Shown piece after piece: positions 33,339 to 61,541 of a stretch of DNA of 64,000 bases. The translations under genes were made by a program, and so were the position numbers. Under the pieces are notes generated by a model that saw only the letters and a list, made by a program, of their open reading frames with translations, ran no database searches and had not been told where the DNA came from. This stretch comes from Candidatus Saccharicenans sp. (GTDB taxonomy: Bacteria > Acidobacteriota > Aminicenantia > Aminicenantales > Saccharicenantaceae), in the NCBI GenBank assembly GCA_030017715.1, contig JASEIU010000001.1, forward strand, positions 65,520 through 129,519, read 5' to 3'. Within the stretch, counting starts at the first letter, position 1. Each line of letters begins with the position of its first letter.

Positions 33339-33354
33339 AGCAATTATCGTGCCA
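33339..33354 (-). promoter_or_regulatory. Sigma-54 (-24/-12) promoter of TonB receptor 1
   Basis: On the - strand TGGCAC-gataa-TTGCT, a full match to the consensus TGGCAY-N5-TTGCW. Predicted transcript start near 33328, leader about 148 bases. Fourteen of the 15 bases from GGCAC to TTGC and its flank agree with the element at 61526-61541. Confidence 0.8.
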
Positions 33355-33413
33355 AACCGGGTGCAATATAAATAATTGAAAACAATAAAAATAAAATTTC
33401 TGCCAAAAACAAG

Positions 33414-33443
33414 AATTCATAAAATTGAATTATCATCCAAAAA
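33414..33443 (-). promoter_or_regulatory. Candidate enhancer-binding-protein site upstream of the sigma-54 promoter
   Basis: AATTCA-taaaat-TGAATT (33414-33431), a perfect 6-bp inverted repeat, followed by ATCCAAAAA (33435-33443). About 70 bp upstream of the -24 element. Similar palindrome plus ATCCAAAAA occur upstream of receptor 2. Inference from position and similarity. Confidence 0.45.
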
Positions 33444-33485
33444 GTTGAATTGATTAGTCTTCTCGCCCCCGTCAAAGCCCTGGGA

Positions 33486-33560
33486 TGGTGGGCGATAGAG
33501 GATTTGAACCTCTGACTTCTACCGTGTGAAGGTAGCACTCTGCCACTGAGTTAATCGCCC
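33486..33560 (-). tRNA. tRNA-Val (anticodon CAC)
   Basis: Complete cloverleaf: acceptor GGGCGAT/ATCGCCC, D-stem ACTC/GAGT, anticodon arm CTACC-TTCACAC-GGTAG with anticodon CAC (reads GUG), T-arm AGAGG-TTCAAAT-CCTCT, discriminator A and an encoded CCA (33486-33488). No intron or long variable arm. Confidence 0.96.
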
Positions 33561-33574
33561 ACCCAGCCGCTTTA

Positions 33575-33602
33575 ATTTTATTCAAATCAACACCGCTGTC
33601 AA
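33575..33602 (-). promoter_or_regulatory. Promoter of tRNA-Val
   Basis: On the - strand TTGACA (33602-33597), 16 bases, TAAAAT (33580-33575). Transcription would start about 8 bases before the mature tRNA. Confidence 0.75.
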
Positions 33603-33892
33603 CCGGAAATCTGCTGTGCCGCGATCTTCAGTCTGGTCAGAAATAGAACATAACTTGGGCCGGAGCCCGGAGCCGGTCTTTTTTCCGCAGTTTGCTTCTT
33701 GGCGGCCCGGCCTGAATACATTTAAGAGTTTTCGGTCAAACTTGATTGACCCCGGAGTTTAAGTCAGGTTTTTCGGCTGTTGCCGGTGCTGCAGGCGGCT
33801 GCGGATTCGATTGCGCGGCGCGGATTACGCTAATGACTGGACTCAAATGATCAGTCTCCCGACCTGGGTCGGCCTGGCCGGAAAATATTTAT
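33603..33892. other. Intergenic region between tRNA-Val and the zinc-ribbon gene
   Basis: About 290 bases of divergent spacer. I see no gene, hairpin terminator or repeat in it beyond the flanking promoters. Confidence 0.4.
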
Positions 33893-33921
33893 TTGACAGG
33901 AAAATTTTTTAGTTTTATAAA
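33893..33921 (+). promoter_or_regulatory. Sigma-70-like promoter of the zinc-ribbon gene
   Basis: TTGACA (33893-33898), 17 bases, TATAAA (33916-33921). Predicted start near 33928 leaves only ~11 bases before ATG 33939 and no Shine-Dalgarno sequence. Confidence 0.75.
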
Positions 33922-33938
33922 TAAGACAGCGAAATAAT

Positions 33939-35441
33939 ATGGGTATCAAGCGCTGTCCTTATTGCCGGGCGTTGATTTCAGACCGGGATCAGTACTGCAA
34001 GAACTGCGGCACCCAGCTTCTTTTCCCCGAGGATGAAGAAATAGAGGAAGAAATCCCGGGCGACAGAATCATCGAGGACGACCGGCAGAGAGACGATTCT
34101 CATCAGCCAGCCGAAGAGCAGCTCGAAGAAGAGCTGGAAGAGGAACCTGAATCGGGGGAGGGGCTGGAAACAGAGTCGGAACCGGAAGAAGAGACAGAGC
34201 TTCTGTTGGCGAAAGATAAAGAAGAGACTGCTTTGCTGGAAGAAGAAGAGGTTGAAAGAATCACCGGCCCCGGTCGCGGGCGGTCGAAACCAAAGAATCT
34301 CCTGCCAGCCGAAAAAGAAAAATCGCTTTTTGGCGGGGACGAAGAGACTGAAACCGGCCTGAAAGAAAACCTTACTTCCCTCCGAACTGAAGACTACCTG
34401 GTGGAGAAAATCAAGAAAGAAATTCTGTCGGAGAGCGAGCCGGAAGAGCCGGCTGAGCCCGGACCGGGATTGGTTACCAGGATCGTGGAAGAGATCCAGC
34501 AGAAAGAGGCGCAGGCAGAAGCGGCTGAAACCTTGCCCGAAAGCCGGCCCGGGCTGGTCACCCGCCTGGTGGAGGAACTGGAGCTGAAAGAAAAAAGGGC
34601 CGCTGCTGAATCGTATGAGGTCGAAACCGGGGAAGAAGAATCATCTGTCTGGCCCACTTTCGAAACAGCTGAGCTGGATAAAATCGGAGGCACGACCGAA
34701 CTCGGCAAAAGAGAAGTGGAAGATTTCTTAAGGGTGCTGGAAGAAAAAGAAAAGGAATACCTGAAAGAAAGGTTAAAAACTTCCGGTCCGGATACCAGAG
34801 AAACGGGTGAAGTTCCCTCCTGGGTAAAAGAAGTTAAAACAGCTTCCACCGAATTGCTGTCCGGTGGCGGGGATACCGGAGAAGTCAAAGTGCCTGAGAA
34901 AGCGGAGGCGGAAACGGACGACCTCTGGCTGGAGGAAGAAGAGACCCCGACGGAGCCCACCATAGGTTTTCCGGAAAAATTGACCCGGAGCGGACTCAAA
35001 GCAGTTGAAGCCGAAGAAGAAACCGGAGAAGTTGATATGGAGCTTGAAGAAAAGATAGAAGAGGAAGAAGAAATGGAGAGCGAGGGCGGGCAGATTTTTG
35101 GTGAAAAAGCAGAGCCAGCTGCGACTGACCGGGACATCTCCGGCCGCGATCTGAGTAGCGGGGTCGGCCAGGTGCTGCCGCCGTTAAGCTTTAAGAATTT
35201 TGTCAAGGCTAAGATTTTTGATCTTCTTTTCCTGGTGATGTTCTGGCTGGTTTCGGTCTGGATAGCGGCCCGGTCGATGGAGACCACCATCTTTAAGCTC
35301 TTCGGTCTGGCCGGCAGCGGGCTGCTGCTTTACCTCTTGATTCTGACCTTTTTCTATTTTTTCCTTTTTTATTTTTTCATCGGGGAAACCCTGGGCGATC
35401 GTCTATTCCGGGAGAGTGATGAAGAAGAGGAAGGCCTCTAA
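33939..35441 (+). CDS. Zinc-ribbon protein with long acidic linker and C-terminal RDD-like membrane segment
   Basis: 500 residues, family not recognised. N-terminal zinc ribbon C-P-Y-C (6-9) and C-K-N-C-G (20-24). Residues ~30-405 are extremely Glu-rich and low-complexity, predicted disordered, with a duplicated motif P-G-L-V-T-R-I/L-V-E-E-I/L (~178 and ~208) and a possible amphipathic helix at 255-280. The C-terminus (~415-490) has two hydrophobic helices starting F-K-N-F-V-K-A-K-I-F-D-L-L and ending F-F-I-G-E-T-L-G-D-R-L-F, resembling a short RDD domain. Likely an inner-membrane protein with a cytoplasmic acidic tail. Nearly leaderless promoter. Function unknown. Confidence 0.75.
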   Translation: MGIKRCPYCRALISDRDQYCKNCGTQLLFPEDEEIEEEIPGDRIIEDDRQRDDSHQPAEEQLEEELEEEPESGEGLETESEPEEETELLLAKDKEETALLEEEEVERITGPGRGRSKPKNLLPAEKEKSLFGGDEETETGLKENLTSLRTEDYLVEKIKKEILSESEPEEPAEPGPGLVTRIVEEIQQKEAQAEAAETLPESRPGLVTRLVEELELKEKRAAAESYEVETGEEESSVWPTFETAELDKIGGTTELGKREVEDFLRVLEEKEKEYLKERLKTSGPDTRETGEVPSWVKEVKTASTELLSGGGDTGEVKVPEKAEAETDDLWLEEEETPTEPTIGFPEKLTRSGLKAVEAEEETGEVDMELEEKIEEEEEMESEGGQIFGEKAEPAATDRDISGRDLSSGVGQVLPPLSFKNFVKAKIFDLLFLVMFWLVSVWIAARSMETTIFKLFGLAGSGLLLYLLILTFFYFFLFYFFIGETLGDRLFRESDEEEEGL

Positions 35442-35553
35442 GCCGGAACCAGTAACCCCACGGGACGTTTAGCCGGCCAGAGGTTTATCTGCTTTTGAAT
35501 CAGTATCGGGACGGAAGGGTGGGGTTGTAAATAATTGAAAACGGAGGGGAAAA

Positions 35554-35583
35554 ATGAAGTCTAATTTTTATCCTGACAGCTGA
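35554..35583 (+). other. Nine-codon open frame behind a strong Shine-Dalgarno
   Basis: GGAGGGGAAAA then ATG and eight sense codons to TGA, in the spacer between the zinc-ribbon and DUF1848 genes. It could be a leader peptide or the remnant of a lost gene. No conservation evidence is available here. Confidence 0.2.
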
Positions 35584-35672
35584 GGTGCCGATGGCGTTCT
35601 GGGCCTGGCTGTTACTATGACTCAAGAGACTGGCCAATAATTATAATGTCAAGAACCAGGATTGGTGTAGCC

Positions 35673-36530
35673 ATGAAAAAAGTCATCAGCGCTTCCAGGC
35701 GAACCGACCTGGTGGCTTTTTACCCGGACTGGCTCTCGGCCTGCCTCAAGCTGGGCCGGGCCAGTTTTTTCCATTACGGAAAAAGGTCTGAGGTCAGAGT
35801 TGACCTCAAGCCAGAGAGGGTGCACACCCTGGTCCTCTGGTCCAAGAACTTTCAGCCGCTGCTGGATAATCGGCACGGGCTCCGGGAGGCGATTGCCGAC
35901 TATGCCCAGGTCTATTTTCACTTCACCATAACCGGTCTGGGCGGCACGTTTATCGAAAGGCTGGCTCCGGCTCCGGCCGCGGCCCTTGGACAGTTGCCGA
36001 CCTTGCTGGAAATAGCCGGTCGGCCGGAAAGGATTTCCGTCCGGTTCGACCCCATTGTCTTCTGGCGCGAAGGCGGAGAACTCAGGACCAACCTGGAGTT
36101 CTTGTCCCCGCTGGCCCGGGAAATAAGCCGCCTGAGCATAACCACCGTCCGGTTCAGCTTTGCCCAGTGGTACAGGAAAGCGGTGGCCAGAGCCAGGAAA
36201 ACAGGGTTTGATTTTTATGAACCTGGCCGGGAAGAAAAGGAGATGGCAGTTAAAAGACTGGCCGAGATGGCCTCGGAACATGGCCTTCAACTCTGGTGCT
36301 GTAGCCAGGCGGAAATAGCCCGGCTTCCGGGGGTAAAAGCTTCGGCCTGCATTGACGGGGCGCTTCTGGCCAGGTTGCATCCAGAAGGGGAACCGGCTTC
36401 GGTCGTAAAAGACCCGACTCAGAGGAAGGATTGTTTATGCACCGAAGCGGTTGATATCGGCAGCTATGCCCAGAGCTGTCCGGCCGCCTGCCTTTACTGC
36501 TATGCCAATCCCCGTCTGAAGACCGATTAG
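35673..36530 (+). CDS. DUF1848 protein (predicted Fe-S, radical-SAM-like fold)
   Basis: 285 residues from ATG 35673, which gives the family-typical start V-I-S-A-S-R-R-T-D. The ATG at 35646 overlaps a TATAAT (35642-35647) that looks like the -10 box. Conserved features: S-A-S-R-R-T-D, V-L-W-S-K-N, F-H-F-T-I-T-G, R-F-D-P-I-V-F-W, and the cysteine-rich end C-L-C-T-E-A-V-D-I-G-S-Y-A-Q-S-C-P-A-A-C-L-Y-C-Y-A-N. The cysteines suggest an iron-sulfur cluster and the order resembles splB/radical-SAM relatives. Function unknown. Convergent with the metallophosphoesterase gene. Confidence 0.87.
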   Translation: MKKVISASRRTDLVAFYPDWLSACLKLGRASFFHYGKRSEVRVDLKPERVHTLVLWSKNFQPLLDNRHGLREAIADYAQVYFHFTITGLGGTFIERLAPAPAAALGQLPTLLEIAGRPERISVRFDPIVFWREGGELRTNLEFLSPLAREISRLSITTVRFSFAQWYRKAVARARKTGFDFYEPGREEKEMAVKRLAEMASEHGLQLWCCSQAEIARLPGVKASACIDGALLARLHPEGEPASVVKDPTQRKDCLCTEAVDIGSYAQSCPAACLYCYANPRLKTD

Positions 36531-36658
36531 CCGGTCAATGGCGGGCGGACGACAACGATCACTCCGGAACTGCAGGCAGTGAACCGATCGGTACCGGCCG
36601 GGCGATAATCATAAGCGGGATGATTTTATTAACGGCCGGGAATTTATCCGGAAATGAA

Positions 36659-36688
36659 TTAATATATGAAAATTCATTCATATATTAA
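36659..36688. repeat. 12-bp AT-rich perfect inverted repeat
   Basis: TTAATATATGAA (36659-36670), six bases, TTCATATATTAA (36677-36688), in the convergent spacer between the DUF1848 and metallophosphoesterase genes. No GC stem or T-run of the usual terminator kind. It could be a weak bidirectional terminator or a protein-binding site. Confidence 0.5.
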
Positions 36689-36787
36689 CGCCTTTAATGG
36701 CGATTGCGGTTGATTTCCGTCGGTCAGATAAAATCGCTTTTAATGAAGTCCCGACCCGACTGGCCCTTTATCTCCGTCCGGCAGGAA

Positions 36788-37528
36788 TCAGATTCCCAGG
36801 CCCAGTCTTTCGGCCAGAGCCGAGGGCAGATTGGCGGCCAGGATCTTTTTCTGGCTTTCCTTCAGGTCATATTCGACCCGGTAGAATTTTATCCGCCGCT
36901 GTTCGGCATCATATATGGCGTAGGCCGCTTTCGGATTGCGGTCGCGGGGCTGGCCGACCGAGCCCGGGTTGACCAGGTAACGGGCTCCTTTTTCCAGCTT
37001 GATTTCAAACGGGTTCTCCTGGATGAAGATCCCTTCCACCGTCTGGTCTTTTTCTATGTAGACGAAAGGAAAATGAGTGTGGCCGAAAAGACAGAGCTGG
37101 GTATCGAAATAGCCGAAGGCTTCGACCGCGTCGAATTCTCCGAAGATGTAATAATCTTCGTCGAAGGGCGAACCGTGGCAGATGGTGAGGTTCTTGTGAA
37201 CGACCAGCGGGCCTTTAGCCAGGCCGGTCAGCAGGTGGATATATTTCTTGGTCAGGGTTTTTCTGGTCCACTGGATGGCCGCCGCGGCTATGGGGTTGAA
37301 GGTCTGGATGGAATCCAGGCCGCAAACCGCTTTGTCGTGGTTTCCCCGGATCATGACCGGGTGCTTCAGCGACAGAACCGTCTGGATAACTTCGTTGGGC
37401 GAGGCTCCGTAGCCGACCAGGTCGCCGAGGAAAATATAATGGTCAATCTTTTTCTTGCTGGCGTGTGCCAGCACCGCTTCCAGAGCTTCTAAATTGCCGT
37501 GAATGTCTGAAAAAATCAGGTAGCGCAT
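36788..37528 (-). CDS. Metallophosphoesterase (YfcE/MJ0936-like)
   Basis: 246 residues. Calcineurin-like dimetal motifs in order: S-D-I-H-G-N (7-12), G-D-L-V-G-Y (35-40), G-N-H-D (63-66), C-H-G-S-P and G-H-T-H (149-152), then V-N-P-G-S-V-G-Q-P-R-D. Hydrolyses phosphoesters in the cytoplasm; the physiological substrate is not readable. Its ATG shares a base with the stop of lipA (TGATG), so it is translationally coupled to lipA. Confidence 0.92.
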   Translation of the reverse strand: MRYLIFSDIHGNLEALEAVLAHASKKKIDHYIFLGDLVGYGASPNEVIQTVLSLKHPVMIRGNHDKAVCGLDSIQTFNPIAAAAIQWTRKTLTKKYIHLLTGLAKGPLVVHKNLTICHGSPFDEDYYIFGEFDAVEAFGYFDTQLCLFGHTHFPFVYIEKDQTVEGIFIQENPFEIKLEKGARYLVNPGSVGQPRDRNPKAAYAIYDAEQRRIKFYRVEYDLKESQKKILAANLPSALAERLGLGI

Positions 37529-38394: not shown

Positions 38395-38451
38395 CCCCGT
38401 TACTCTTTTCCGAAATTCGGACTGATTAAGGAAGACTTCCCTGAAAGGAGC

Positions 38452-38658: not shown

Positions 38659-38695
38659 TAAATTTCACCTCCTAACTTCTGGAAAGTCATTCATT

Positions 38696-38724: not shown

Positions 38725-38836
38725 GAAAGCGTCATTTTTGCGGAGCCCTGTCCTGGATATCAGAAAAAGGCTCTGTCGCAACTCGCCCTGCTTGCCGCCG
38801 CTATCTATAAAGAAGGAAACATGGCTGAGTTTTTAT

Positions 38837-50946: not shown

Positions 50947-53244
50947 TCAGCGCGAAGAATTGACCAGTTGCCGTCCCTTGTTTGCGTATTGCTCCGAAGC
51001 GGCGTAGTCGCCCAGCCGGTTGTAGAGGTCGGCCAGAAGGAAATAACCAAGCGGCAGATTTTCTCTGTCCGGTTTAAGCTCCAGCCCCTTTTTTACCAGA
51101 CCTATGGCTTCTTGATAACGCTCTCCCCGCCGCAAGTAAATCCGGGCCAGGTAAAAGTAGGTCAGCGGAAAATCCGGATTGGCCTGAAGAGCTCGCTGCA
51201 GGGTTTCCAGCTCCTCCTGCTCTCGGTGCTGCAGACGATAGAGACGGGCCAGGTTGAACAGGGCCTTATAATGGCTGGGGGAGTCGGCGATCTCCTGCCG
51301 GTAGAGTTCCATGGCTTCCGGAATCCGGTTCTGCCTTTCCCTGAGCTGGGCTAAGTTGTAGCGGAGATTCAACAGAGTCGGGTTCAATTCCTGGGCGGCC
51401 CTCAGATGCTCTTCGGCACCGGCCAGGTCGTCCCGGTTAAGGCAGATGGCGGCGATGGCGTTATGGGCAGAAGCTGATCTTGGATTTTTTTTGAGGCATT
51501 CCCCAAAATAGGGGAGGGCTTTTTCATAATTTCCTCTGAGGGCATAAAGCGTTCCCAGCACATGGTAAAATTGAGGATCGTCGAATCCCCTTTTCACCTG
51601 TTCCAGGATGAATTGCTCGGCCAGATCCAGCTTGTTAAGGGCGGCATAGCAGTTGGCCACGTTAATCACGGCGAAGGAATCGTCGGGTTTGAGTTCCAGG
51701 GAGCGGGTAAAGGCTTCGACTGCCTCCTGAAATTTTCTGGCTTTGAAATAGAGGTTGCCCAGAGCAAAGAACCCGTCGCTGATGGTCGGGTCATCTTCCA
51801 GAATTTTTCTCAGGGCGCTTATGGCTTCTTCAAAATGGCCGGCCATACCGGTTTCCCGGGCCCGGGAGATTTCATTGAAAATATTGATCTTATCCTTAGG
51901 GTCAGCCAGTTTTTTACCGGACAGCCTGGCCGGGTCCACAAACGAGCCGAGGTAGCCCAGGGCAGCCAGCTTCTCCCGGGTTTCTTCGTCCACCGAAGCA
52001 AAATCGGCTTCGATAGCTTTTTCCCCGGCCTTTTTTTCAAATTCTTCTGCCAGCCGGGTCAATTGTTCGTAGACTTTCTTTTCAATATAGACCAGGTTCT
52101 TCTGTTCGTCCGGGTCGGATTTCAGGTCGTAGAGCTCGGGCACCGGGGCCAGGATTAATTTATAGCGGTTGTTCTGAAGACTGCGCAGTTCGGACCAGCC
52201 ATAGTGATAACGCGGGTAAAAAGTCTCGGAGTAGGCCATCCGGTCTTCGGCCTTCTTTCTTCCGTCAAAATAAGGGAGAAGACTCCGGCCCTGGACCTCG
52301 GGCGGTATGTTCAGTCCGATCATTTCCAGGACAGTCGGCATCATATCGGCCAGGGTGACCACGCCGGAATAGGTTTTTCCTTTGAATTTTTCGAAGGGGG
52401 TGACAAAAATCAGCGGAACATGAATTGCTTCCTGGTAAACAAAGAAACCGTGCGTGGTTTCGCCATGCTCTCCCAGGCTTTCGCCATGGTCGGAAGCCAG
52501 AACCAGAAAAAGGTTATCAAGCAGTTTTTCTTTTTCCAGGTAGTTCCAGAAGCGGGCCAGCTGGCTGTCGGTGTAGGCGATTTCTCCGAGGTATGGCCGG
52601 TCGGGATATTGCGACTTGAAGGGCTCCGGAGGCTCATAGGGAGTGTGGGGGTCGTAGAGATGGATCCAGGCAAAGAATTTCTGGGATTTGTTCTTTTCCA
52701 GCCAGGTCAGGGCCTCGTCTATGGTCTCTTCGGCCCGGCGCTGAACCTCGCCCAGCGAGATTTTTTCGAACCGGCCCAGGTCGAAGCGGTCGAAATAATA
52801 ATCAAAACCCTGGTTCAAACCCCATTTTGAATCGAGGACATAGGCCGAAACAAAAGCTGCCGTCCGGTAGCCGGCTGCTTTGAAAGATTCAGCCATGGTC
52901 TCCAGCCGGGGCGAAACCACGAATCCGCCGTTGTCGCGCACTCCGTGATGGATCGGCAGCGTGCCGGTCAGGATGGTAGTGTGCGAAGGCAGGGTCAGGG
53001 GAGTCTGGGCGATGCAGTTTTCAAACCGCACTCCGGAAGCGGCCATCTTATTCATGGCCGGCGTCAGGTCAGGAATAAAACCGTAACAGCCGAGCCGGTC
53101 AGCCCGCAGGGTATCAACGGTTATCAGGATAACATTAAAATCCTGGTGTTCGCGGAGTTGCCGGACTGAGTCATCCGACCTGAATATGAAGAGGGCGACG
53201 GCGGCCAGGGCTATGGCCAGAAAAATTATCAAAACTTTTTTCAT
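50947..53244 (-). CDS. Membrane-anchored sulfatase-like enzyme with C-terminal TPR (paralogue 2)
   Basis: 765 residues. N-terminal signal-anchor (4-21), sulfatase-like domain (~35-430) and about eight TPRs (~455-760). Metal motifs V-I-L-I-T-V-D-T-L-R-A-D-R and A-S-D-H-G-E-S-L-G-E-H. The nucleophile motif is T84-L-P-S-H88, again Thr for the formylglycine Cys/Ser and His for Arg, as in the 27338-29587 protein. Most likely a phosphatase/phosphotransferase or a non-classical sulfatase acting in the periplasm on a partner held by the TPRs. The promoter (TGATATAAT) ends seven bases before ATG, so a leaderless transcript is expected. Confidence 0.87.
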   Translation of the reverse strand: MKKVLIIFLAIALAAVALFIFRSDDSVRQLREHQDFNVILITVDTLRADRLGCYGFIPDLTPAMNKMAASGVRFENCIAQTPLTLPSHTTILTGTLPIHHGVRDNGGFVVSPRLETMAESFKAAGYRTAAFVSAYVLDSKWGLNQGFDYYFDRFDLGRFEKISLGEVQRRAEETIDEALTWLEKNKSQKFFAWIHLYDPHTPYEPPEPFKSQYPDRPYLGEIAYTDSQLARFWNYLEKEKLLDNLFLVLASDHGESLGEHGETTHGFFVYQEAIHVPLIFVTPFEKFKGKTYSGVVTLADMMPTVLEMIGLNIPPEVQGRSLLPYFDGRKKAEDRMAYSETFYPRYHYGWSELRSLQNNRYKLILAPVPELYDLKSDPDEQKNLVYIEKKVYEQLTRLAEEFEKKAGEKAIEADFASVDEETREKLAALGYLGSFVDPARLSGKKLADPKDKINIFNEISRARETGMAGHFEEAISALRKILEDDPTISDGFFALGNLYFKARKFQEAVEAFTRSLELKPDDSFAVINVANCYAALNKLDLAEQFILEQVKRGFDDPQFYHVLGTLYALRGNYEKALPYFGECLKKNPRSASAHNAIAAICLNRDDLAGAEEHLRAAQELNPTLLNLRYNLAQLRERQNRIPEAMELYRQEIADSPSHYKALFNLARLYRLQHREQEELETLQRALQANPDFPLTYFYLARIYLRRGERYQEAIGLVKKGLELKPDRENLPLGYFLLADLYNRLGDYAASEQYANKGRQLVNSSR

Positions 53245-53565: not shown

Positions 53566-56331
53566 TCAGAAGATCAGACGGATTCCAACTCTGGCCTGTC
53601 TGGCGTTAACGATTCCGTAAAGCTCATGGCCCTGGGTGGATGGATAGATAGTAGGATTCCAGTCGTACATCCAGCGGGTGCCCCAGGAAGTAATGGTGTC
53701 AGAATTCAGCAGGTTGAAGACGTCAACCATCAGCCCGAGCCGGTACTTGCTGGCGAAGGTAAATATCTTTTCCAGCCTGATATCAATCTGGTGGTCCATC
53801 GGATAATGGTTAGAACCTCTGGGTTCGATGAAGAAGGTGATGCGGCCCTGGTTGAAGCGGGCAGTCCTGTAGCGGGTGGTCCAGGCGTTTCCGGTGACCC
53901 CGTGATAATAGACGTTGACACTCAGTTCTATTGTGGGAATAACATAGGTGCCCTGGATCTTGATCATGTGGGTCGGGTCGTAAGTAGAATTTCCGTCGCT
54001 GTTTATCCAGAAGTTCGGGTCGTAGACACTGCCGCCGTAGCCGATGTCGTCGGCAAAGCCGTTATCAGTCGTGCCCCAGGCTTTGGACAGGGTGTAAGAA
54101 GCCAGTAACTGCCACCGGTTGGAGAATCTCTTGTTGAACTGGAACTGAATTCCGTGGTAACGGCGGTAAGGTTTCTGCATGATCCAGGGATAATCGCCGT
54201 AGACTCTGTCCAGGTTGGTGATATAGTACTGCGGGGTTTCCAGGGTTTCCAGGGTTCGTTCGTAGACGGTATAATCACCGAAATTGGGAACGGTCACAGT
54301 ACGCTCAATATAATCGGCGTTCAGGTCAATCGGGCCGATCAGGTTCTTCCATTGACGGTTGATGTAGCTGATGCTGAAGGAAGAATCCTTAAACAGCTCG
54401 CGCTCCAGGCTGACTGTCCACTGAATCATATAGGGATGCTTGATGTCCGGGTCCATAAGATACTGGTCGTGCGGAATGGAGAACCAGAGCAGCCATTCAT
54501 CATAGATGCCATCCTCGTCGTCGTCATACCAGTCATAATAATATCCGTTGTAGCTACTGTAAGCGGAGGGAGGGTTCATGCGGTCGTGATAGGCGGTCAG
54601 CATGGCTTCCGAGAAGTGTCCGTAATGGGCTTTCAGAACGGTGGTCTTGTCGCCGAACAGGTCATAGGTGAAGCCGAGACGGGGGGAAATTCTGCTGTTG
54701 GTGTAGACATTCCCGGAAATACCCTTCACCTGACCCCAGTACAGGCTGAACCTGACGCCGGCGTTGATGTTGAGCCGTTTGGTCACCTGCCAGGAATCCT
54801 GGGCGAAGGCTTCCAGTCGGGTATAACGGGTATTGATATCGTAGCCGTCATACTGATAAGCGAGGTATGGATAGCCATAATAGTCATAATACTGGACATG
54901 GTCGCCCAGCTCTCCGCCCTCTCCGGTAAAACCGTAGCGGCTGCGGGCCATAGACCTCTCAAATTCAGCTCCGAACTTGAAGTCGTGCGAGCCGTAAAAA
55001 TCGTCAACGTAATGGCTTAAGTTGGCATTGGCCTGGAAGCGCTGCCGGTCGGCATAGTAGAAGTAACCAGAGCTGAACCGCTGGAAATTGTCGGCAAAGT
55101 CAAAGTGCATATACGGTGCCATGCCAACTTCAGGGTCGAGGTAATAATAACCCCAGAAATAGGCAGCCTTGACATCCAGGAAAGTCTTGGAGCTGAAAAT
55201 CTTGGTCAGGCTGAAATTGCCGACCACTTCGGGAGATTTCTGGGTGACAGTAGCTTCGGGCGAGACTGTGGCTCCGGCGCCGCGGTTGATGCCGTTGTAG
55301 GTATCTATCTGAACGGAACCGGTCAAGCTCAGGCTGGGAGTCAACTGAGAAGTAAGTTTGAGAAAGCTTCTGGGCTGTTTGTAGTCGACAGCCTCGGGGA
55401 ACCCGGTCGGATAGCGCCAGGTGCGGTAATACTGAAGTCCGACATAGAACCACAATTTATCGCGAATAATCGGTCCTCCCAGATGGGCGTTGACATCCAT
55501 CAGTTTCAGCAGGGGGGTGGTCAGTGAAGGAAAATCGTCAATGTAGGCGGCATTATTTTCGGTGCCCCATAAACCTTTCGGCTTGTCTGTCCTTTTTCCC
55601 TGGAAATCAAATTCCATATGGCCAGAAAAGTTGTTGCCGCCGGACTTGGTTACCAGGTTGAAGATAACTCCGGTAAAATTGCCGTATTCGGCCGGCAATC
55701 CGACGCCCATGATCTTGGCTTCTTCCACGATATTGTGGTCGGAAAAAACCCAGGCTGATCCGGCTTCCGGGTCGGCCACATTAACACCGTCCATAGTGTA
55801 GGCGATACCGGTGTTCTGGGAAGCTCCGAAGGCCACGTTGTTGGTGACACCGGGGGCCATGTTGACGATGTCGGCGGTAAACTGGCTGTAGGGTATGTTG
55901 CGAAGGATTTCATTGCTGAGCGAAACCGAAGCGGTTTCGGTGGATTTTACGTCAACTGTCGGAGATTTGGCCACTACCGTAACTTCTTCTTCCAGAGTGG
56001 ATTGCTTCATCGTCAGGTCAACGGTTAAAGTAGAAGTGGTGCTCAGGCGGACATCGCGGTTCACCACATCGCCGAATCCCTGCAGCTCAGCCTTTATGGT
56101 GTAGGTTCCTGGCGGCAGGGCCGGAAACCGGTAGGTCCCTCTGGCATCAGTCATGGTGGACCTTGTGCCCATAATGGCCGGTCCGCTGATGGTCACGGTC
56201 ACACCGGGAAGAGGCAAGCCCGATTCATCGGTTACCGTTCCGATGATAGCGCCGGTTTCGCGTGACTGCGAGAAGGCCAGAGGAGCCATAACCAACAGAA
56301 TAGTTAAGAGAACGAAGATCTTTTTACTCAA
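53566..56331 (-). CDS. Oar-like TonB-dependent outer-membrane receptor 2
   Basis: 921 residues from TTG 56331, chosen because AAAGGAGG lies seven bases upstream and the product then starts with a clean signal peptide (S-K-K-I-F-V-L-L-T-I-L-L-V-M, cleavage near A-F-S-Q). Carboxypeptidase-regulatory-like domain (~30-115, G-T-V-T-D-E-S-G-L-P-L-P-G-V-T-V), plug (~125-225, V-T-V-V-A-K-S-P-T-V-D; F-N-L-V-T-K-S-G-G-N-N-F) and beta-barrel ending Q-A-R-V-G-I-R-L-I-F, a BAM signal with terminal Phe. Shares domain plan, sigma-54 promoter type, leader layout and terminator position with receptor 1. Substrate unknown. Confidence 0.92.
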   Translation of the reverse strand: MSKKIFVLLTILLVMAPLAFSQSRETGAIIGTVTDESGLPLPGVTVTISGPAIMGTRSTMTDARGTYRFPALPPGTYTIKAELQGFGDVVNRDVRLSTTSTLTVDLTMKQSTLEEEVTVVAKSPTVDVKSTETASVSLSNEILRNIPYSQFTADIVNMAPGVTNNVAFGASQNTGIAYTMDGVNVADPEAGSAWVFSDHNIVEEAKIMGVGLPAEYGNFTGVIFNLVTKSGGNNFSGHMEFDFQGKRTDKPKGLWGTENNAAYIDDFPSLTTPLLKLMDVNAHLGGPIIRDKLWFYVGLQYYRTWRYPTGFPEAVDYKQPRSFLKLTSQLTPSLSLTGSVQIDTYNGINRGAGATVSPEATVTQKSPEVVGNFSLTKIFSSKTFLDVKAAYFWGYYYLDPEVGMAPYMHFDFADNFQRFSSGYFYYADRQRFQANANLSHYVDDFYGSHDFKFGAEFERSMARSRYGFTGEGGELGDHVQYYDYYGYPYLAYQYDGYDINTRYTRLEAFAQDSWQVTKRLNINAGVRFSLYWGQVKGISGNVYTNSRISPRLGFTYDLFGDKTTVLKAHYGHFSEAMLTAYHDRMNPPSAYSSYNGYYYDWYDDDEDGIYDEWLLWFSIPHDQYLMDPDIKHPYMIQWTVSLERELFKDSSFSISYINRQWKNLIGPIDLNADYIERTVTVPNFGDYTVYERTLETLETPQYYITNLDRVYGDYPWIMQKPYRRYHGIQFQFNKRFSNRWQLLASYTLSKAWGTTDNGFADDIGYGGSVYDPNFWINSDGNSTYDPTHMIKIQGTYVIPTIELSVNVYYHGVTGNAWTTRYRTARFNQGRITFFIEPRGSNHYPMDHQIDIRLEKIFTFASKYRLGLMVDVFNLLNSDTITSWGTRWMYDWNPTIYPSTQGHELYGIVNARQARVGIRLIF

Positions 56332-56406
56332 TCTTGAGCCTCCTTTCGAAATTATCCAATTGCCTTTACCAAACAAAACTCCGAAAAATGCCCTTAACCT
56401 TTTTTC

Positions 56407-56416
56407 TCACCTCCTT
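56407..56416 (-). promoter_or_regulatory. Start-distal Shine-Dalgarno in the TonB receptor 2 leader
   Basis: AAGGAGGTGA on the - strand, 76 bases upstream of the TTG start and without an ATG behind it; the embedded GTG opens only a 14-codon frame. A counterpart sits in the receptor 1 leader (33289-33298). Confidence 0.4.
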
Positions 56417-56477
56417 TTTGCGTAAAATTCAATTTACCCTTGCAACCTAAAATTATAATAACTTTATCTTTTTGTAA

Positions 56478-56493
56478 AGCAATTTTTATGCCA
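56478..56493 (-). promoter_or_regulatory. Sigma-54 (-24/-12) promoter of TonB receptor 2
   Basis: On the - strand TGGCAT-aaaaa-TTGCT, a full match to TGGCAY-N5-TTGCW. Predicted start near 56467, leader about 136 bases. Confidence 0.78.
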
Positions 56494-56564
56494 GACCGGC
56501 GATTAAATTAAATGATTGATAAACAATAAGTTGAAGCGTAATTAATTTTAGTTTAGAACGGATT

Positions 56565-56595
56565 ATTCAATTTATTGAACGAAAATTATCCAAAA
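56565..56595 (-). promoter_or_regulatory. Candidate enhancer-binding-protein site upstream of receptor 2
   Basis: TTCAA-TTTA-TTGAA (56565-56578), then ATCCAAAAA (56587-56595). About 80 bp upstream of the -24 element. In receptor 1 the same two blocks occur in the same order. Inference. Confidence 0.45.
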
Positions 56596-56842
56596 AACCG
56601 AATAATTGTTATTTTTGCCTTTGAGAATAATTCAGAAAAAAGTGGCGCCAAATTATTAATAGCATTGCTTTCTGGTGCCCTGTTTTCCGGGAATTCGTCA
56701 GCCGGACGGTAGAGTGAGGTCAACCAGGTCGTCCTCGAGGCAACCAAATTTACTTTCAGCAGTTATGGATAGTGATAGAGACAGGTTGTTAGCACTCGGC
56801 CCAGCAAAAAATAGACTTAAAGAATTATCTCAAAAAATCTGA
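56596..56842. other. Rest of the divergent region between TonB receptor 2 and the third GWxTD gene
   Basis: About 250 bases without a gene. AT-rich to about 56640, then more GC-rich. A lone TTAGCACTC (56789-56797) has no CIRCE partner arm. No other structure recognised. Confidence 0.35.
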
Positions 56843-56848
56843 TAGAAT
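56843..56848 (+). promoter_or_regulatory. Possible -10 box of the third GWxTD gene
   Basis: TAGAAT, the same hexamer as in the promoter of the first GWxTD-TPR gene (24052-24057). No convincing -35 at 17 bases. Leader would be ~90 bases to ATG 56943. Confidence 0.3.
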
Positions 56849-56942
56849 ATTGTCTTAATGTTTGCTATATGAACGGCGGTGGCCCCCTCGTTCAAGACAG
56901 GTGAAATTGAAACCAGGACGGGATAAAAGGGAATTTTCAGAC

Positions 56943-59033
56943 ATGTTTTTCGGTTTCTCGAAATTTGTTAAGAGCCTGAAACCTCTACGGCCGGTTATCG
57001 GAATTTTCTTGTGCTGTGTTCTGGCCGGCTATCCGGCCCTCGGCCAGAAACCAAAAGACCCGGTTAGAGAGTTGACTCCGGACCAGAAAGACTGGCTGGA
57101 AATTGTTACTCCGATCATAACCGGAGTGGAGAAAGAGGTCTTTCTTAAGTTGAAAACGGAACAGGAACGCGACCGGTTCATCAGCCTGTTCTGGAAAGTC
57201 AGAGACCCCAATCCGGACACCAACGAAAACGAGTTCTACCGGGAATATATGGAAAGAGTCAATTTTGCCGACCGCTATTTCACCATTGGTTCGGTCAAAA
57301 GAGGTTGTCTGACTGAACGCGGTTTTTATTATCTTCTGCTGGGGAAACCCCGTGAGCGTCAGGTTTTTGCTACCCAGTCCGACATCTGGCCGCTGGAATT
57401 ATGGTTTTACCAGGGCGACCCTAAATATGGGCTGCCCGGATATTTTTATCTCATTTTCTACCAGCCCGAGGGCTCCGGAGACTACCGTCTTTATTACCCG
57501 GGACTTGAGGGGCCGGAAAAACTGGTCATCCCTTCTATGAGCTTTTCCCAGCTAACCAGAACCAGAGCCCTGGAAATAATTAAGGCTGTTAACGCAGAAC
57601 TGGGCAAGGCAGCCCTCAGCTATCTGCCTGAAGAAAGCCAGGAGGGTTTCAGTTCTTTAACTTCGCAGAACATTGTCGCCACCATAAAATCGCTGCCTGA
57701 CAGGAAGTTCTCTTCCGCCTACGCCAAAAATTACCTGAGTTATAAAGACCTGGTCGAGGTTGACTATTCTCACAATTTTATTACCTCCAGCGCCAGGGCC
57801 AGGGTATTTCCAGACGGCCCGCATTATTTTGTTCACTGGTCTGTTGAGCCTGATAAAATCAATTTTGCCGAGACTGACGGAATTTATTCAGCCAGTTACG
57901 AACTCACCGTCAGGCTGGAAGACCTGAAGGGGCAGCCGGTTTTAACCCGGACGGAAGAAGTGCCGCTCAGGCTTAACCGCCAGCAATTTGAAACCCGGGC
58001 CAGGCAGCGGCTGGCTTTTCAGGACCTGTTTCCGGTGCTGCCCGGAGATTACAAATTGCTGATTCTCCTGAAGAACAAGACTGCCCGGGATTTTACCTCC
58101 TGGGAAACAAACCTGAAAGTTCCGGGGACTGATGGCGGCCGTTACCTGAGCCCTCTTATTTTATACCATGCGGCCGGCCCTCTTCAGGCCGGGTCGGCCA
58201 AAGCCTTTTCCTTCAAAGGTCAGGAATATCTGGTCGGGGCCCGGAATGAGTTTTCGCCGACCGAGAAGCTGCAGATTTTCCTCTGGCTCCTGTCTGACCG
58301 GGAACTGCCGGGAGGGGCTCAAATTCAGTTCTGTTTGAAGAGTCTGGATTCTGAGGCCAGCCCCGATTGCCGGAAGGCGCTCCTGGCAGAATGGCTGCAG
58401 CCAGACCAGAGCCTGCGAATTGGGCCTGTGGACCTGAGCCAGGTAAAACCCGGTTACTACCGGGTTGAAGTGTCTCTTATTGACGGCAACCGAACCCTGG
58501 ATACAGTCAGGGAAAACCTGGTGGTTCTGGCCCAGCCGGCTCTGACTGCTCCCTGGGTATTGGCCCGGGTATACCGGGCGATGCCCTCGCCGGATTTTCA
58601 GAGAATGCTGGCCGGCCAGCATTTTTTGAAGGGCGAATACCAGGAAACCAGAAAAATTCTGGAAGAACTGCTGACCGGCCGCGACGACCCGGAAAGCCGG
58701 TTGCTGCTGGCCAGGACCCTGTTTGCCCTGGGCGATTACCGGGGTTCTCTGTCGGCCGCGGCGGCAGTATACCAAGCTACCGGGAACAGGGAAGCGGCCA
58801 AAGTCCTGGCCATCAATTATGCCAGGTTGAAGGATTGGTCAGAAGCGAAGGTCCACCTGGATACTCTCCTGGCCGAGGCAACAGAAGTCAGCGTCCTGAA
58901 CCTGGCGGCCGAGGTTTATCAGAACCTGGGCCAGCGGGAGCAGGCCATAAAATACCTGGAGAGATCTCTGGTCCTGCAGCCTGACCAGCCCGGGGTTAAA
59001 TCCTGGCTGGATGAATTAAAAAAGAAAAGATAA
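56943..59033 (+). CDS. Exported GWxTD-like protein with C-terminal TPR (paralogue 2)
   Basis: 696 residues from ATG 56943; in-frame upstream residues from TTG 56862 are Arg/Lys-rich and do not resemble a signal peptide. Signal segment ~15-34 (cleavage near A-L-G-Q). Domain layout follows the 24087-26180 protein: F-I-S-L-F-W-K-V-R-D-P-N-P-D-T (79-93), then where the signature is expected G-C-L-T-E (121-125), with Trp and Asp both replaced, and L-L-L-G-K-P. C-terminal TPRs (~545-690). The degenerate signature may mean changed function. Weak Shine-Dalgarno. 82 bases upstream of a carboxypeptidase-regulatory-TPR gene. Confidence 0.85.
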   Translation: MFFGFSKFVKSLKPLRPVIGIFLCCVLAGYPALGQKPKDPVRELTPDQKDWLEIVTPIITGVEKEVFLKLKTEQERDRFISLFWKVRDPNPDTNENEFYREYMERVNFADRYFTIGSVKRGCLTERGFYYLLLGKPRERQVFATQSDIWPLELWFYQGDPKYGLPGYFYLIFYQPEGSGDYRLYYPGLEGPEKLVIPSMSFSQLTRTRALEIIKAVNAELGKAALSYLPEESQEGFSSLTSQNIVATIKSLPDRKFSSAYAKNYLSYKDLVEVDYSHNFITSSARARVFPDGPHYFVHWSVEPDKINFAETDGIYSASYELTVRLEDLKGQPVLTRTEEVPLRLNRQQFETRARQRLAFQDLFPVLPGDYKLLILLKNKTARDFTSWETNLKVPGTDGGRYLSPLILYHAAGPLQAGSAKAFSFKGQEYLVGARNEFSPTEKLQIFLWLLSDRELPGGAQIQFCLKSLDSEASPDCRKALLAEWLQPDQSLRIGPVDLSQVKPGYYRVEVSLIDGNRTLDTVRENLVVLAQPALTAPWVLARVYRAMPSPDFQRMLAGQHFLKGEYQETRKILEELLTGRDDPESRLLLARTLFALGDYRGSLSAAAAVYQATGNREAAKVLAINYARLKDWSEAKVHLDTLLAEATEVSVLNLAAEVYQNLGQREQAIKYLERSLVLQPDQPGVKSWLDELKKKR

Positions 59034-59115
59034 AAGGCTATAATGGACTCGGATGGCGGCAGAGATGATAATTCAAGCCGGAGGCAATCGATAAGTGATT
59101 ACTAAGGAGCGGTCG

Positions 59116-60048
59116 ATGAACTTAAGAAAAATAAAGACTCGGGTTTTGATTGTTTCAGTTTTATTTCTGCTTTTATCCATCAGCAGTCTGGCCCAGGTGC
59201 GGGGCAAGGTCAGGGGCACGGTGGTTGATTCTCAGGGAAATCCTCTGGAAAAAGCGACTGTAACCATCATCTCCACCAGGCAGGCCAGCCAGAGGTACGA
59301 GACTAAAACTGGCAAAGACGGAAAGTTTGCCCAGGTCGGCATCTATCCCGGCTATTACCAGGTTTCCATCAAGAAAGATGGCTATCTTCCGAAGTCCCTG
59401 GAGGTCCACGTGGAGATTGACGGCGATACCAATCTTGAAATCATTAAACTGGAAACGGCCGATGAGCGGGCGATGAAGAGCCTGTCAGGCGCGGATAAAG
59501 CCTTCCTTAAAGCCAATGAATATTACAACAAACAGGATTATGAAAAGGCTGCGGCCGCCTACCAGGAGGCCATCGGTCTAAGCTCCAATAACTGGGCCTA
59601 TTATTTCAACCTCGGCCTGACTTATAAGAAATTAAACAGGCTGTCTGAAGCCAGGGAGGCCTTCAATAAAGCGGTGGAACTCAATCCTGAGAGCTTCAGC
59701 GCCAACAAAGAGCTGGGCGAACTCCTGGCCAGAGAGGAACAGTATGAGGCGGCTGCCGGCTATTACCGGAAAGCGGCCAAGCTCAGCCCCAATGACCCCG
59801 ACGCTCATTATAATCTTGGAGCCTGCCTGGTCAATCTTGGCCAGGGAGAGGAAGCCCTGGCCCATTTTCAAAAAACAATCGAGCTGAAGCCGGATTATGC
59901 CGAAGCCTATTTTCAACTGGGGTCGATTTACATCGGCCAGAATAAGAAGGCGGAAGCCATTGCCAGCCTGGAGAAATTCCTGGAGCTGGCCCCCCAGCAC
60001 GAAAAAACCGCTCTGGCCCGGCAATTGCTGGAATACTTAAAGAAATAG
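59116..60048 (+). CDS. Exported carboxypeptidase-regulatory-like/TPR protein (paralogue 2)
   Basis: 310 residues from ATG 59116, preceded by AAGGAG (the GTG at 59095 has none). Signal peptide to S-S-L-A-Q (~27). Carboxypeptidase-regulatory-like beta-sandwich ~32-115 (G-T-V-V-D-S-Q-G-N-P-L-E-K-A-T), then four or five TPRs (A-D-K-A-F-L-K-A-N-E-Y-Y-N-K-Q-D-Y; Y-F-N-L-G-L-T-Y-K-K-L; H-Y-N-L-G-A-C-L-V-N-L-G; Y-F-Q-L-G-S-I-Y). Same architecture and same position behind a GWxTD-TPR gene as 26225-27196. Likely a periplasmic scaffold of the same machine. Confidence 0.87.
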   Translation: MNLRKIKTRVLIVSVLFLLLSISSLAQVRGKVRGTVVDSQGNPLEKATVTIISTRQASQRYETKTGKDGKFAQVGIYPGYYQVSIKKDGYLPKSLEVHVEIDGDTNLEIIKLETADERAMKSLSGADKAFLKANEYYNKQDYEKAAAAYQEAIGLSSNNWAYYFNLGLTYKKLNRLSEAREAFNKAVELNPESFSANKELGELLAREEQYEAAAGYYRKAAKLSPNDPDAHYNLGACLVNLGQGEEALAHFQKTIELKPDYAEAYFQLGSIYIGQNKKAEAIASLEKFLELAPQHEKTALARQLLEYLKK

Positions 60049-60253
60049 TTGGCCGTTCCGGGCGCGGAAACGCCGGCAGATTGTCGGGGACAGGGATATT
60101 GTTTCCTGGTCCAAAATTTTCGACCGGCCAAAAGCCTCAGATTCCGGTCTGATAACAACAAGCTGATCAGGAGGGCCGGCCCTGGTTGGGGCCACCAGGC
60201 GCCTCTTTTAGCGTCCGGTCAATATTCCCGGCTGTTTCCGGGGCTCCGGCGGT
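60049..60253. other. Intergenic region after the second carboxypeptidase-regulatory-TPR gene
   Basis: No gene or clear terminator for the upstream gene; moderately GC-rich, nothing else seen before the tRNA-like fragment. Confidence 0.35.
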
Positions 60254-60322
60254 TGATTCGCCCGAGTGGCTGAAGACGATGTCTCAGGACATGATACCAG
60301 GGGCAACAGGCCGGCGGTTCCG
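60254..60322 (+). pseudogene. tRNA-Ser-like fragment, not a functional tRNA
   Basis: GCCCGAGTGGCTGAAG (60260-60275) equals a typical bacterial tRNA-Ser D-arm, and CCGGCGGTTCCGATG further on recalls a T-arm. The anticodon arm does not fold with a seven-base loop (ATGTC/GACAT encloses only four bases) and the acceptor ends do not pair. Probably a relic of a tRNA-Ser or an old integration scar. Confidence 0.35.
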
Positions 60323-60379
60323 ATGAGGCCTGATCAGGTCTCACTCCCCCAGCGGATGGTTGGTTTTAGCGGCGCGGCG

Positions 60380-60414
60380 AAAAAAAAGGGACAGCCGGCC
60401 GGGCCGGCTGTCCC
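60380..60414 (-). terminator. Intrinsic terminator of the secreted-protein gene
   Basis: GGGACAGCCGG pairs with CCGGCTGTCCC (five-base loop) and is followed on the - strand by eight T. 27 bases past the stop codon. Confidence 0.92.
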
Positions 60415-60441
60415 CTGATAATCAAACGTGTTTTCTATTGA

Positions 60442-61488
60442 CTACTCAACTACCAGCTCAAAGGGGATCCTCTTTTCCAGAGTGGTTCCGCCAATTTTAT
60501 CCTTGATGCTTATAACCAGCTCATAACCGCCGGCTTCCAGCGAACGGTTTTCGATTTTCTCTCCCTTGTCGTCGGTTACCTTAACCTGTTTGGAGGCCGG
60601 GATGGGGATGGGTTGTTCAATGAAGGGGGATTCATAGGTCATCGGGGTGAAGGCCACAATCTTGGTCTCGCCCTTGCGGATGTCGAAATTTATTTCCAGG
60701 GAAGCTTTCTGAGACTCATCAAATTTGGTTCCGTAAACCATGAACATCAGGGTGGGCTGGTCGTTCGGCTTGAATCTCATCTCGGTATAGGGATAGGCCT
60801 TCAGGATCATCCAGCCGAAATAATCCTTATGGAAGTTGGGATAATTTTCGGCCGCGTCTAACTGCTCGTAATTCTTCAGCAGCAGCAGACTGGTCGTTTC
60901 CATCTGACCGTTTTTATAGCTGTCCTCGTAGCGGGGGATTTCGAATTCATAGTAGGTTGTTCCGATCTTTTTGGTTTTCCTGTTGCCCAGGGCCGCGGCC
61001 AGTATATATTTTCCGGACGGAAGCGGATAGCCGAGGTAATAGTAGCTCTCTCCCTCGGGATTGTATTCTTCGGCCGGGACCGAAAACTGGCTGTAAGCTT
61101 TATTTTCGGTTACCAGCTTGGGGGCTGATCCGTCATTTTGATAAATCTGAAAGAAGATATCAGATTCGGTCTGGAAGCTGTTGCCGCTGCTTACAGACTG
61201 GGCATATTCCAGGTCGGCATTCTTGATCTTGGTGACGAAAATAGCGATGTAGGTGCCTCTGGCTGGAAGAATGTAATGTCCGTCAAAACTGAACGGCAGG
61301 TCCGGCTTAACCTGTCTGGCGGCCAGTCCCTGCTCCAGCAGCGCTTTAACATCGGTGGGCAAGGTGGTTTTGGCTTTTTGTTCTTTCTTCTGATCTTTTT
61401 TCTGAGGCTCGGCCTGAGCCAGATTAAAGGCTAAAGTCAAGGTCAGAATCAGAATCAGCGAAAGGGCGAAAAATTTCTTGCGATTCAT
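60442..61488 (-). CDS. Secreted protein of unknown function under a sigma-54 promoter
   Basis: 348 residues, family not recognised. Signal peptide 1-~27 (L-A-Q-A-E), then a Lys/Gln-rich linker (28-42) and beta-rich sequence to the end. Motifs that may help matching: L-P-A-R-G-T-Y-I-A-I-F-V-T-K, Y-Y-Y-L-G-Y-P-L-P-S-G-K-Y-I-L-A-A-A-L-G, and F-T-P-M-T-Y-E-S-P-F-I-E-Q-P-I-P-I-P. The rhythm suggests two or three Ig-like sandwiches. AGGAGG before ATG. It has its own sigma-54 promoter and strong terminator, so it is an independent unit next to the surface module and may be a partner of the TonB receptors. Confidence 0.8.
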   Translation of the reverse strand: MNRKKFFALSLILILTLTLAFNLAQAEPQKKDQKKEQKAKTTLPTDVKALLEQGLAARQVKPDLPFSFDGHYILPARGTYIAIFVTKIKNADLEYAQSVSSGNSFQTESDIFFQIYQNDGSAPKLVTENKAYSQFSVPAEEYNPEGESYYYLGYPLPSGKYILAAALGNRKTKKIGTTYYEFEIPRYEDSYKNGQMETTSLLLLKNYEQLDAAENYPNFHKDYFGWMILKAYPYTEMRFKPNDQPTLMFMVYGTKFDESQKASLEINFDIRKGETKIVAFTPMTYESPFIEQPIPIPASKQVKVTDDKGEKIENRSLEAGGYELVISIKDKIGGTTLEKRIPFELVVE

Positions 61489-61525
61489 CTTTCCTCCTGT
61501 TTATTCTTTTCACCGGCTTCTTAAC

Positions 61526-61541
61526 TGCAATAATCGTGCCA
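61526..61541 (-). promoter_or_regulatory. Sigma-54 (-24/-12) promoter of the secreted-protein gene
   Basis: On the - strand TGGCAC-gatta-TTGCA, a full consensus match differing from the receptor 1 element only at one spacer base and the final W. Predicted start near 61515, leader ~27 bases. Confidence 0.8.

Follow-up and report, generated by a model that had tools for sequence, protein, structure and literature searches.

Three sigma-54 promoters and their genes

The window analysed here, a stretch of 64,000 nucleotides from a Candidatus Saccharicenans sp. (phylum Acidobacteriota, class Aminicenantia; contig JASEIU010000001.1), carries two genes for Oar-type TonB-dependent receptors and one gene for a further protein, each on the minus strand and each preceded by a match to the sigma-54 promoter consensus. 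Here, we describe evidence that the two receptor genes belong to what is probably a dedicated regulon of Oar-type receptors, under a two-component system and sigma-54. The window corresponds to G000:C10:65520-129519 of a genome of 2.89 Mb that is 92.6% complete.

An earlier note on this DNA had picked out three 16-mers of the form TGGCAYN5TTGCW, and these are indeed present on the minus strand, at 33339-33354 (TGGCACGATAATTGCT, Oar gene 1), 56478-56493 (TGGCATAAAAATTGCT, Oar gene 2) and 61526-61541 (TGGCACGATTATTGCA, the third gene), as the sole exact matches in the window. In 100 dinucleotide shuffles of the window the mean number of exact matches was 0.10 and none of the shuffles contained three or more, while across the genome 15 exact sites were found against a single match for the reversed pattern. 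With one mismatch allowed, the window gave 22 matches against 15.3 expected, a number reached by two shuffles, and the genome gave 61 against 45 for the reversed control; because this excess is little or none, exact sites alone are interpreted here and the one-mismatch scans were dropped. The spacing from site to start, put at 27-148 nucleotides in the note, proved slightly different on measurement, namely 37 nucleotides between the site at 61526 and an ATG at 61488, 146 between 56478 and a TTG at 56331, and 149-158 between 33339 and either a GTG at 33189 or an ATG at 33180.

The identification of two Oar-type receptors stands. The first (30082-33180, minus strand, from the ATG at 33180 or alternatively the GTG at 33189) matches all four Pfam models of such a receptor above cut-off (PF13620, PF25183, PF00593 and PF07715), thus combining a CarboxypepD_reg domain with plug and barrel. 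The second (53566-56331, minus strand, from the TTG at 56331 in a frame open to 56376) matches CarboxypepD_reg (PF13620) and OMP_b-brl_4 (PF25183), with no plug match and with PF00593 below cut-off. The third gene (60442-61488, minus strand) encodes a protein of 348 residues for which no Pfam or NCBIfam family was found at E 0.001; its signal-peptide-like N-terminus is the whole basis for its description as secreted and beta-rich. Relatives that align with Oar 1 over its full length, at 92% identity in the best segment, belong to Candidatus Saccharicenans records, and an exact sigma-54 site lies upstream at 18 of 24 loci related to Oar 1, the six misses comprising two truncated loci and four without a site. 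Sulfatase-TPR genes adjoin both receptor genes in the window, at 27209-29587 (plus strand) and 50947-53244 (minus strand).

The genome has the machinery that such promoters require. It encodes RpoN with its AID, core-binding (CBD) and DNA-binding (DBD) domains, the RpoN box reading ARRTVAKYRG and so departing in its last residue from the consensus ARRTVxKYRE, together with ten strong matches to enhancer-binding proteins (EBPs), the activators of sigma-54 polymerase, and one weak AAA+ match. Of its 15 exact sites, one is intragenic (L008), one precedes only a doubtful open reading frame (ORF) of 75 residues (L006), and 13 precede plausible starts. The enrichment at TonB-receptor genes envisaged in the earlier note is borne out by the long Oar-type genes, of which 4 among 11 have an exact site (hypergeometric P between 1e-7, if 2,800 genes are assumed, and 5e-7, if 2,000 are), these 11 being the CarboxypepD_reg matches, of 21 in total, with the domain near the N-terminus and a frame of at least 932 residues (L107, L109, L112 and L113 were left out).

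A shared palindrome and a candidate kinase/activator operon

All four Oar sigma-54 promoters of this genome carry a full 10/10 match to the palindrome TYCAA-N4-TTGRA, placed 86-107 nucleotides before the -24 box, where an upstream activating sequence (UAS) would be expected. In the window these lie on the minus strand at 33436-33449 for Oar gene 1 (TTCAACTTTTTGGA), with a second, 9/10 copy 20 nucleotides away at 33416-33429 (TTCAATTTTATGAA), and at 56566-56579 for Oar gene 2 (TTCAATAAATTGAA), with a weaker 8/10 copy 23 nucleotides upstream at 56589-56602 (TTCGGTTTTTTGGA). At a threshold of at least 9/10 the palindrome was found at none of the 11 other sigma-54 sites of the genome, the third window site included (4/4 against 0/11, Fisher P 7e-4), and at none of the seven long Oar genes that have no sigma-54 site. 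The sequence as such is no commoner than chance, its exact form occurring at 12 places in the genome against 12 for the reversed control; it is its placement that is significant.

The same arrangement recurs across the class, where 65 of 68 Oar sigma-54 promoters have a 9/10 palindrome, against 3.5 for shuffled and 5 for reversed controls, and where paired copies are most commonly spaced by 19 nucleotides (17 cases) or 20 nucleotides (22 cases). The motif was spotted by eye in a listing of class promoters, K-mer enrichment having been swamped by tRNA sequence, and was tested afterwards; since the 68 include the promoters in which it was first seen, this count is not an independent test. Better tests are the contrast within the own genome, the kinase operons described below and a class-wide composite of UAS plus sigma-54 site, although the composite shares many genomes with the original listing. 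Searched without reference to the leader, the composite occurs in 60 of 141 class genomes, with none for the reversed control, and 79 of its 87 distinct instances precede a CarboxypepD_reg (Oar-type) gene (88 were listed; G116:C61, at a contig end, was left out). The other eight comprise four cut off by the end of a contig, two of them with the beginning of an Oar-like protein still visible, and four that precede other sequences (L311, L322, L346 and L350, one being the kinase gene itself). An IHF-like sequence, TTATTGAT, is exact in only 9 of the 68 promoters and is not claimed as part of the arrangement.

Of the 12 exact palindromes of the genome, one stands immediately before an operon for a kinase and an activator outside the window (C10:354642-358863), and none lies near the other nine strong EBP matches. 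The kinase, of 949 residues, combines the domains PDZ, GAF, PAS, HisKA and HATPase with a 7TM-like region that scores under the Pfam cut-off; the activator, P0002, is an NtrC-type protein of 459 residues with a receiver, an AAA+ domain containing GAFTGA and a Fis-type helix-turn-helix (HTH_8). In the best 30 kinase loci from the 141 genomes with a match, the own genome included, a palindrome of at least 9/10 stands upstream of the operon in 29, against 1.34 in shuffled sequence, and of the 27 aligned sequences that extend to the activator helix KPTT[LF]NEM, 26 retain it. The shared palindrome thus suggests this kinase/activator pair as the regulator of the Oar genes. The pair does not score as an AtoSC or PrsKR equivalog, its scores against the NCBIfam models staying below their cut-offs (AtoC 489 of 714, NtrC 439 of 558.6, PrsR 399 of 502.6, PrsK 134 of 300 and AtoS 286 of 646).

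Several observations weigh against this assignment or restrict it. At 8/10, two other sigma-54 sites of the genome also match the palindrome, namely the intragenic L008 and L011, and 81 of the 141 class genomes have no exact composite of UAS and sigma-54 site. The palindrome of the operon is usually single and close to the start of the kinase gene, and no sigma-54 site was noticed beside it except in genome G100; such a position could be that of a repressor site for another protein. A different EBP might bind the UAS, with the operon either merely a further target or carrying a palindrome bound by an unrelated repressor, a reading that we regard as distinctly improbable given the retention of the palindrome at nearly all the operons compared, the near invariance of the recognition helix, the kinase gene of G100 that has both a UAS and a sigma-54 site (L350) and, within the own genome, the lack of an exact palindrome near any other strong EBP match.

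The earlier note had gone further in proposing a single cell-surface regulon in which one activator serves all three window promoters. It is true that all three sites are exact, that two of the products are outer-membrane receptors and that the third looks exported, and the idea of a common signal survives for the two Oar genes, which share an enhancer, since the UAS stands at the four Oar promoters and, at 9/10 or better, at no other site. It is not supported for the third gene, whose promoter at 61526 shows, in the 350 nucleotides searched, no 14-mer that resembles the UAS at 8/10 or above and so falls outside the Oar regulon. Moreover, the genome's sigma-54 promoters serve several pathways: two of the ten strong EBP matches sit beside sigma-54 targets of their own, a pilin-like gene in one case (L009/L018) and glutamate dehydrogenase in the other (L007/L020), and a TonB_C-domain protein stands behind an exact site without an Oar-type UAS (L015, G000:C16:12249). 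A single activator for all three is hence very unlikely, and the term cell-surface regulon is both too broad for what sigma-54 controls here and too vague for the actual unit, which is an Oar-receptor regulon. That the sigma-54 sites arose by chance or are fossils, as their small genome-wide excess at one mismatch and the one intragenic case among 15 might hint, can be dismissed as exceedingly improbable given the near absence of exact matches to the reversed pattern and the recurrence of the sites with a UAS in 60 genomes.

Further features were seen around these elements. Close to the UAS of Oar 1, a tRNA gene (33489-33560) immediately precedes the receptor gene's upstream region, and by K-mers its sequence recurs upstream in 14 of the 68 class promoters. 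At the TonB_C locus (L015) an ORF further on matches PTS_EIIC below cut-off. Another exact sigma-54 site (L004, G000:C10:329081) precedes two tandem small, cysteine-containing, secreted-looking proteins of 74 and 87 residues with no Pfam match, followed by a DUF5128 beta-propeller gene. Two near-alike EBP ORFs (C15:1195, L025, and C15:8999, L026, only the former domain-scanned) lack a receiver, by eye, and begin directly with the AAA+ domain, and one of them adjoins an ABC-transporter-like ORF (by eye). Among receptor genes, an Oar-type gene without a sigma-54 site (L099, G000:C10:61875) has repeated GTTAACGTTAAC palindromes upstream that by eye resemble LacI-family operators, and a cobalamin riboswitch (RF00174, 104.8 bits, at 129-302 of the locus) precedes a TonB-receptor-like gene (L044, G000:C11:90296).

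The leader of the Oar transcripts

Between the sigma-54 site and the receptor start there is often a conserved leader with a set order of parts: a Shine-Dalgarno (SD)-like sequence, AGGAGGTGA, with no start codon behind it, a hairpin with AGGGnnAAGGG, and then the true ribosome site. At Oar gene 1, all on the minus strand, AGGAGGTGA occupies 33290-33298, with no start codon 4-12 nucleotides behind and with GGAGGTGA invariant in 16 aligned leaders; the hairpin, GGGATGG...CCATCCC, occupies 33225-33245 and is followed by a conserved AGGGTGAAGGG at 33214-33224. A second inverted repeat, CATTCGAA..TTCGAATG, at 33178-33204, holds the true SD in its loop and the ATG in its 3' arm; all eight of its pairs are invariant in the 16 orthologous leaders, so that no test of covariation is possible there. 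At Oar gene 2, AGGAGGTGA again lacks a start codon (56407-56415, minus strand), the true SD is at 56336-56344, and a model of the leader matches at 56359-56416 (G000:C10:121878-121935, E 0.0013). By construction of the search, AGGAGGTGA lies 54-84 nucleotides after the start of the sigma-54 site, a distance that reaches about 200 in other cases, and the receptor start follows 78-186 nucleotides after AGGAGGTGA in the leaders read.

The leader model matches in 78 of 141 class genomes (E 0.01), and 84 of 90 matches precede an Oar-type gene. These 90 comprise every match at E of 3.5e-5 or below, apart from C12:381006 (at an Oar gene with a sigma-54 site) and C14:168760 (at an Oar gene with none) of the own genome, together with a single match at 8.7e-5; among weaker matches, those of the own genome were looked at. 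A further own-genome match (C10:749012, E 8.7e-4) has neither AGGAGG nor an Oar gene and was taken as false. Of the matches away from Oar genes, three are at contig ends (L153, L194 and L215) and one precedes a secreted protein with a sigma-54 site (L233); two more, in two genomes and without a sigma-54 site (L201 and L238), precede an unrelated protein (MTxTKELKKVEPKDQRIVFNAEFGKLYQVVRGG...). Where enough upstream sequence was available, 68 of 89 matches had an exact sigma-54 site and 77 of 89 a site of at least 10/11, with none for the reversed control. Since part of the training set had been selected for its sigma-54 sites, the count was repeated after dropping 34 matches that share 60 nucleotides with the training set: an Oar-type gene follows in 51 of the remaining 56, a sigma-54 site of at least 10/11 is present in 47 of 55 (reversed control 0), and a UAS is present in 46 of these 47 and in one of the eight without a site. 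A simpler composite of sigma-54 site and AGGAGGTGA is carried by 42 of the 142 genomes of the class; in a sample of 396 genomes of the phylum it was found in 23, five of them outside the class, and the reversed control was 0 in both cases.

GGAGG is present in 77 of the 78 leader matches with a sigma-54 site of at least 10/11, and a start codon 4-12 nucleotides behind it occurs in only 3 of these 77, compared with 39% of nearby spacer windows; the possibility that AGGAGGTGA begins a leader peptide was rejected for the sigma-54 leaders on this count. The hairpin, for its part, covaries: in 36 leaders aligned without regard to structure, 37 cells show double changes against 12.6 in shuffled alignments, and the share of cells that pair is 87.5%, compared with 57% for the best of the slid versions. 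A fitted alignment gives a stronger covariation value, but one that leans towards the structure.

The picture is not uniform, and the following points weigh against the proposal set out below. The number of hairpin pairs with any double change is only 6 against 4.7 expected, and 59 of 500 shuffles give as many. The leader also occurs apart from sigma-54 sites, as 12 of the 90 matches have no site at 10/11 and ten of these 12 precede Oar-type genes; in 8 of the 12, a start codon does follow the upstream SD. A leader peptide is plausible at these leaders, seven of the eight with a start codon being at Oar-type genes. Two distant relatives, L134 and L136, combine a sigma-54 site with a minimal ORF. 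Lastly, among the 79 promoters with UAS, sigma-54 site and Oar gene, the upstream SD has no start codon in 55 and has one in 5, and no separate upstream SD exists in 19. As a separate observation, a minimal ORF of two residues (such as ATG ACA TAA) after the upstream SD is seen in L188, L189, L034, L134 and L136.

Fifteen of those 19 promoters belong to two families, f11 and f12, in which the leader is short and plain and the SD is, by eye, the actual ribosome site; the start-less SD may, for this reason, descend from an ordinary one. We tentatively suggest, as a possibility rather than an expectation, that the leader, with its start-less, full-strength SD and covarying hairpin, represents a new cis-acting RNA class derived from such an ancestral ribosome site, which would park a 30S subunit and couple receptor synthesis to the supply of ribosomes, on top of the sigma-54 switch. 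A somewhat less likely alternative is that it acts as an attenuator or riboswitch responding to a ligand or protein, and not as a landing pad for ribosomes. The covarying hairpin and the conserved G-rich strand behind it would suit such a device, as would the second inverted repeat that encloses the true ribosome site in the Oar-1 group; the conserved part is, however, short for a ligand pocket, no run of T directly follows the hairpin in the leaders read (by eye), and Rfam gave no match over the leader at gathering score in the window and five leader loci, nor any at E up to 5 in six loci. It is quite unlikely that the leader has no function of its own, AGGAGGTGA being a fossil left behind when a new downstream start arose. 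The f11 and f12 promoters would provide its ancestral state, yet a fossil should decay, and what is seen instead is the invariance of GGAGGTGA in orthologous leaders, a depletion of start codons behind AGGAGGTGA and a hairpin that covaries.

The proposed circuit and its relation to known systems

In the NtrC family, activators typically combine a receiver, an AAA+ domain with GAFTGA and a Fis-type helix-turn-helix, the kinase gene lies beside that of the activator, and the UAS stands about 100 nucleotides upstream of the -24/-12 promoter. It is this logic, together with the comparative evidence, that leads us to join the kinase, activator, UAS, sigma-54 and Oar genes into one circuit. The membrane histidine kinase (PDZ, 7TM-like, GAF, PAS, HisKA and HATPase) would phosphorylate the NtrC-type activator of its own operon, which would then bind a UAS of one or two TYCAA-N4-TTGRA elements, typically 19-20 nucleotides apart and mostly 75-115 nucleotides upstream of the -24 box, and remodel the sigma-54 polymerase for transcription of the receptor gene, while the palindrome before the operon would permit autoregulation. 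In the Aminicenantales, the transcript would often open with the conserved leader of AGGAGGTGA, covarying hairpin and true ribosome site, and the start-less SD, by analogy with the STAB-SD element discussed below, may serve to load a 30S subunit close to the 5' end, thereby protecting or priming the message. Taken as a whole, a dedicated two-component sigma-54 regulon of Oar-type receptors with a structured leader bearing a start-less SD is, in our judgement, the likely explanation. Comparison between genomes supports the promoter, the UAS, the operon palindrome and the conservation and covariation of the leader; from the sequences we further infer the phosphorelay, its signal, DNA binding, start sites, autoregulation and leader function.

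The circuit so predicted runs from sensor through activator, enhancer and promoter to its targets, a family of surface receptors. As all the related records found are metagenome-assembled, little of it is directly testable in these bacteria, but it could be tested piecewise in a surrogate host. A search of open-licence literature (titles and starts of abstracts) for TonB receptor with sigma-54 or RpoN, or for Aminicenantes or Saccharicenans, returned no paper on this regulon, nor did that literature yield a two-component system acting through sigma-54 that is devoted to TonB receptors throughout a class.

Known systems resemble parts of the arrangement. It is like the NtrC-family two-component regulons AtoSC, NtrC, ZraSR and PrsKR in its domains, adjoining kinase gene and distant UAS, and differs in having Oar-type receptors as targets and in its sub-threshold scores against the AtoC, AtoS, NtrC, PrsR and PrsK equivalogs. 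A precedent for control of TonB-dependent receptors by a member of the EBP family is FleQ of Pseudomonas, which has such receptors among its listed direct targets (PMC6120874); that list, from chromatin immunoprecipitation sequencing, is diverse, with the receptors among iron genes, and what it describes is not a dedicated receptor regulon with a shared leader. The theme of sigma-54 as a controller of the bacterial exterior was set out by Francke et al. in 2011 for exopolysaccharides, flagella, lipopolysaccharide, lipoproteins and peptidoglycan precursors, in a text that contains neither TonB nor Acidobacter as a term (PMC3162934), and a 2025 study of regulons across phyla mentions TonB itself in Flavobacteriia, with Acidobacter and Aminicenant absent from its text (PMC12316311). 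Closer in design is KguSR/RpoN of uropathogenic E. coli, where the transport gene c5038 has a sigma-54 promoter that is driven by an EBP and provided with inverted repeats for it (PMC5318444); there the target is an alpha-ketoglutarate importer in one species, whereas here it is a receptor family across a class. The receptors themselves resemble Oar of Myxococcus xanthus, a TonB-dependent transporter of the CarboxypepD_reg type that is known for its requirement in secretion of the PopC protease, the passages on it holding no comparable regulatory data (PMC6434023).

For the leader, the nearest counterpart is the STAB-SD of Bacillus thuringiensis cry3A, an SD-like sequence near the 5' end of the transcript (-129) that does not direct initiation (PMC4113751). 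The element described here is likewise SD-like and close to the predicted 5' end, with no start codon 4-12 nucleotides behind it in 74 of 77 cases, and differs from STAB-SD in being followed by a covarying hairpin, in being preceded by a sigma-54 promoter and in recurring at paralogous genes across an order. A start-less SD leader that is conserved and covarying at paralogous genes offers a test case for ribosome-binding sequences that do not initiate translation.

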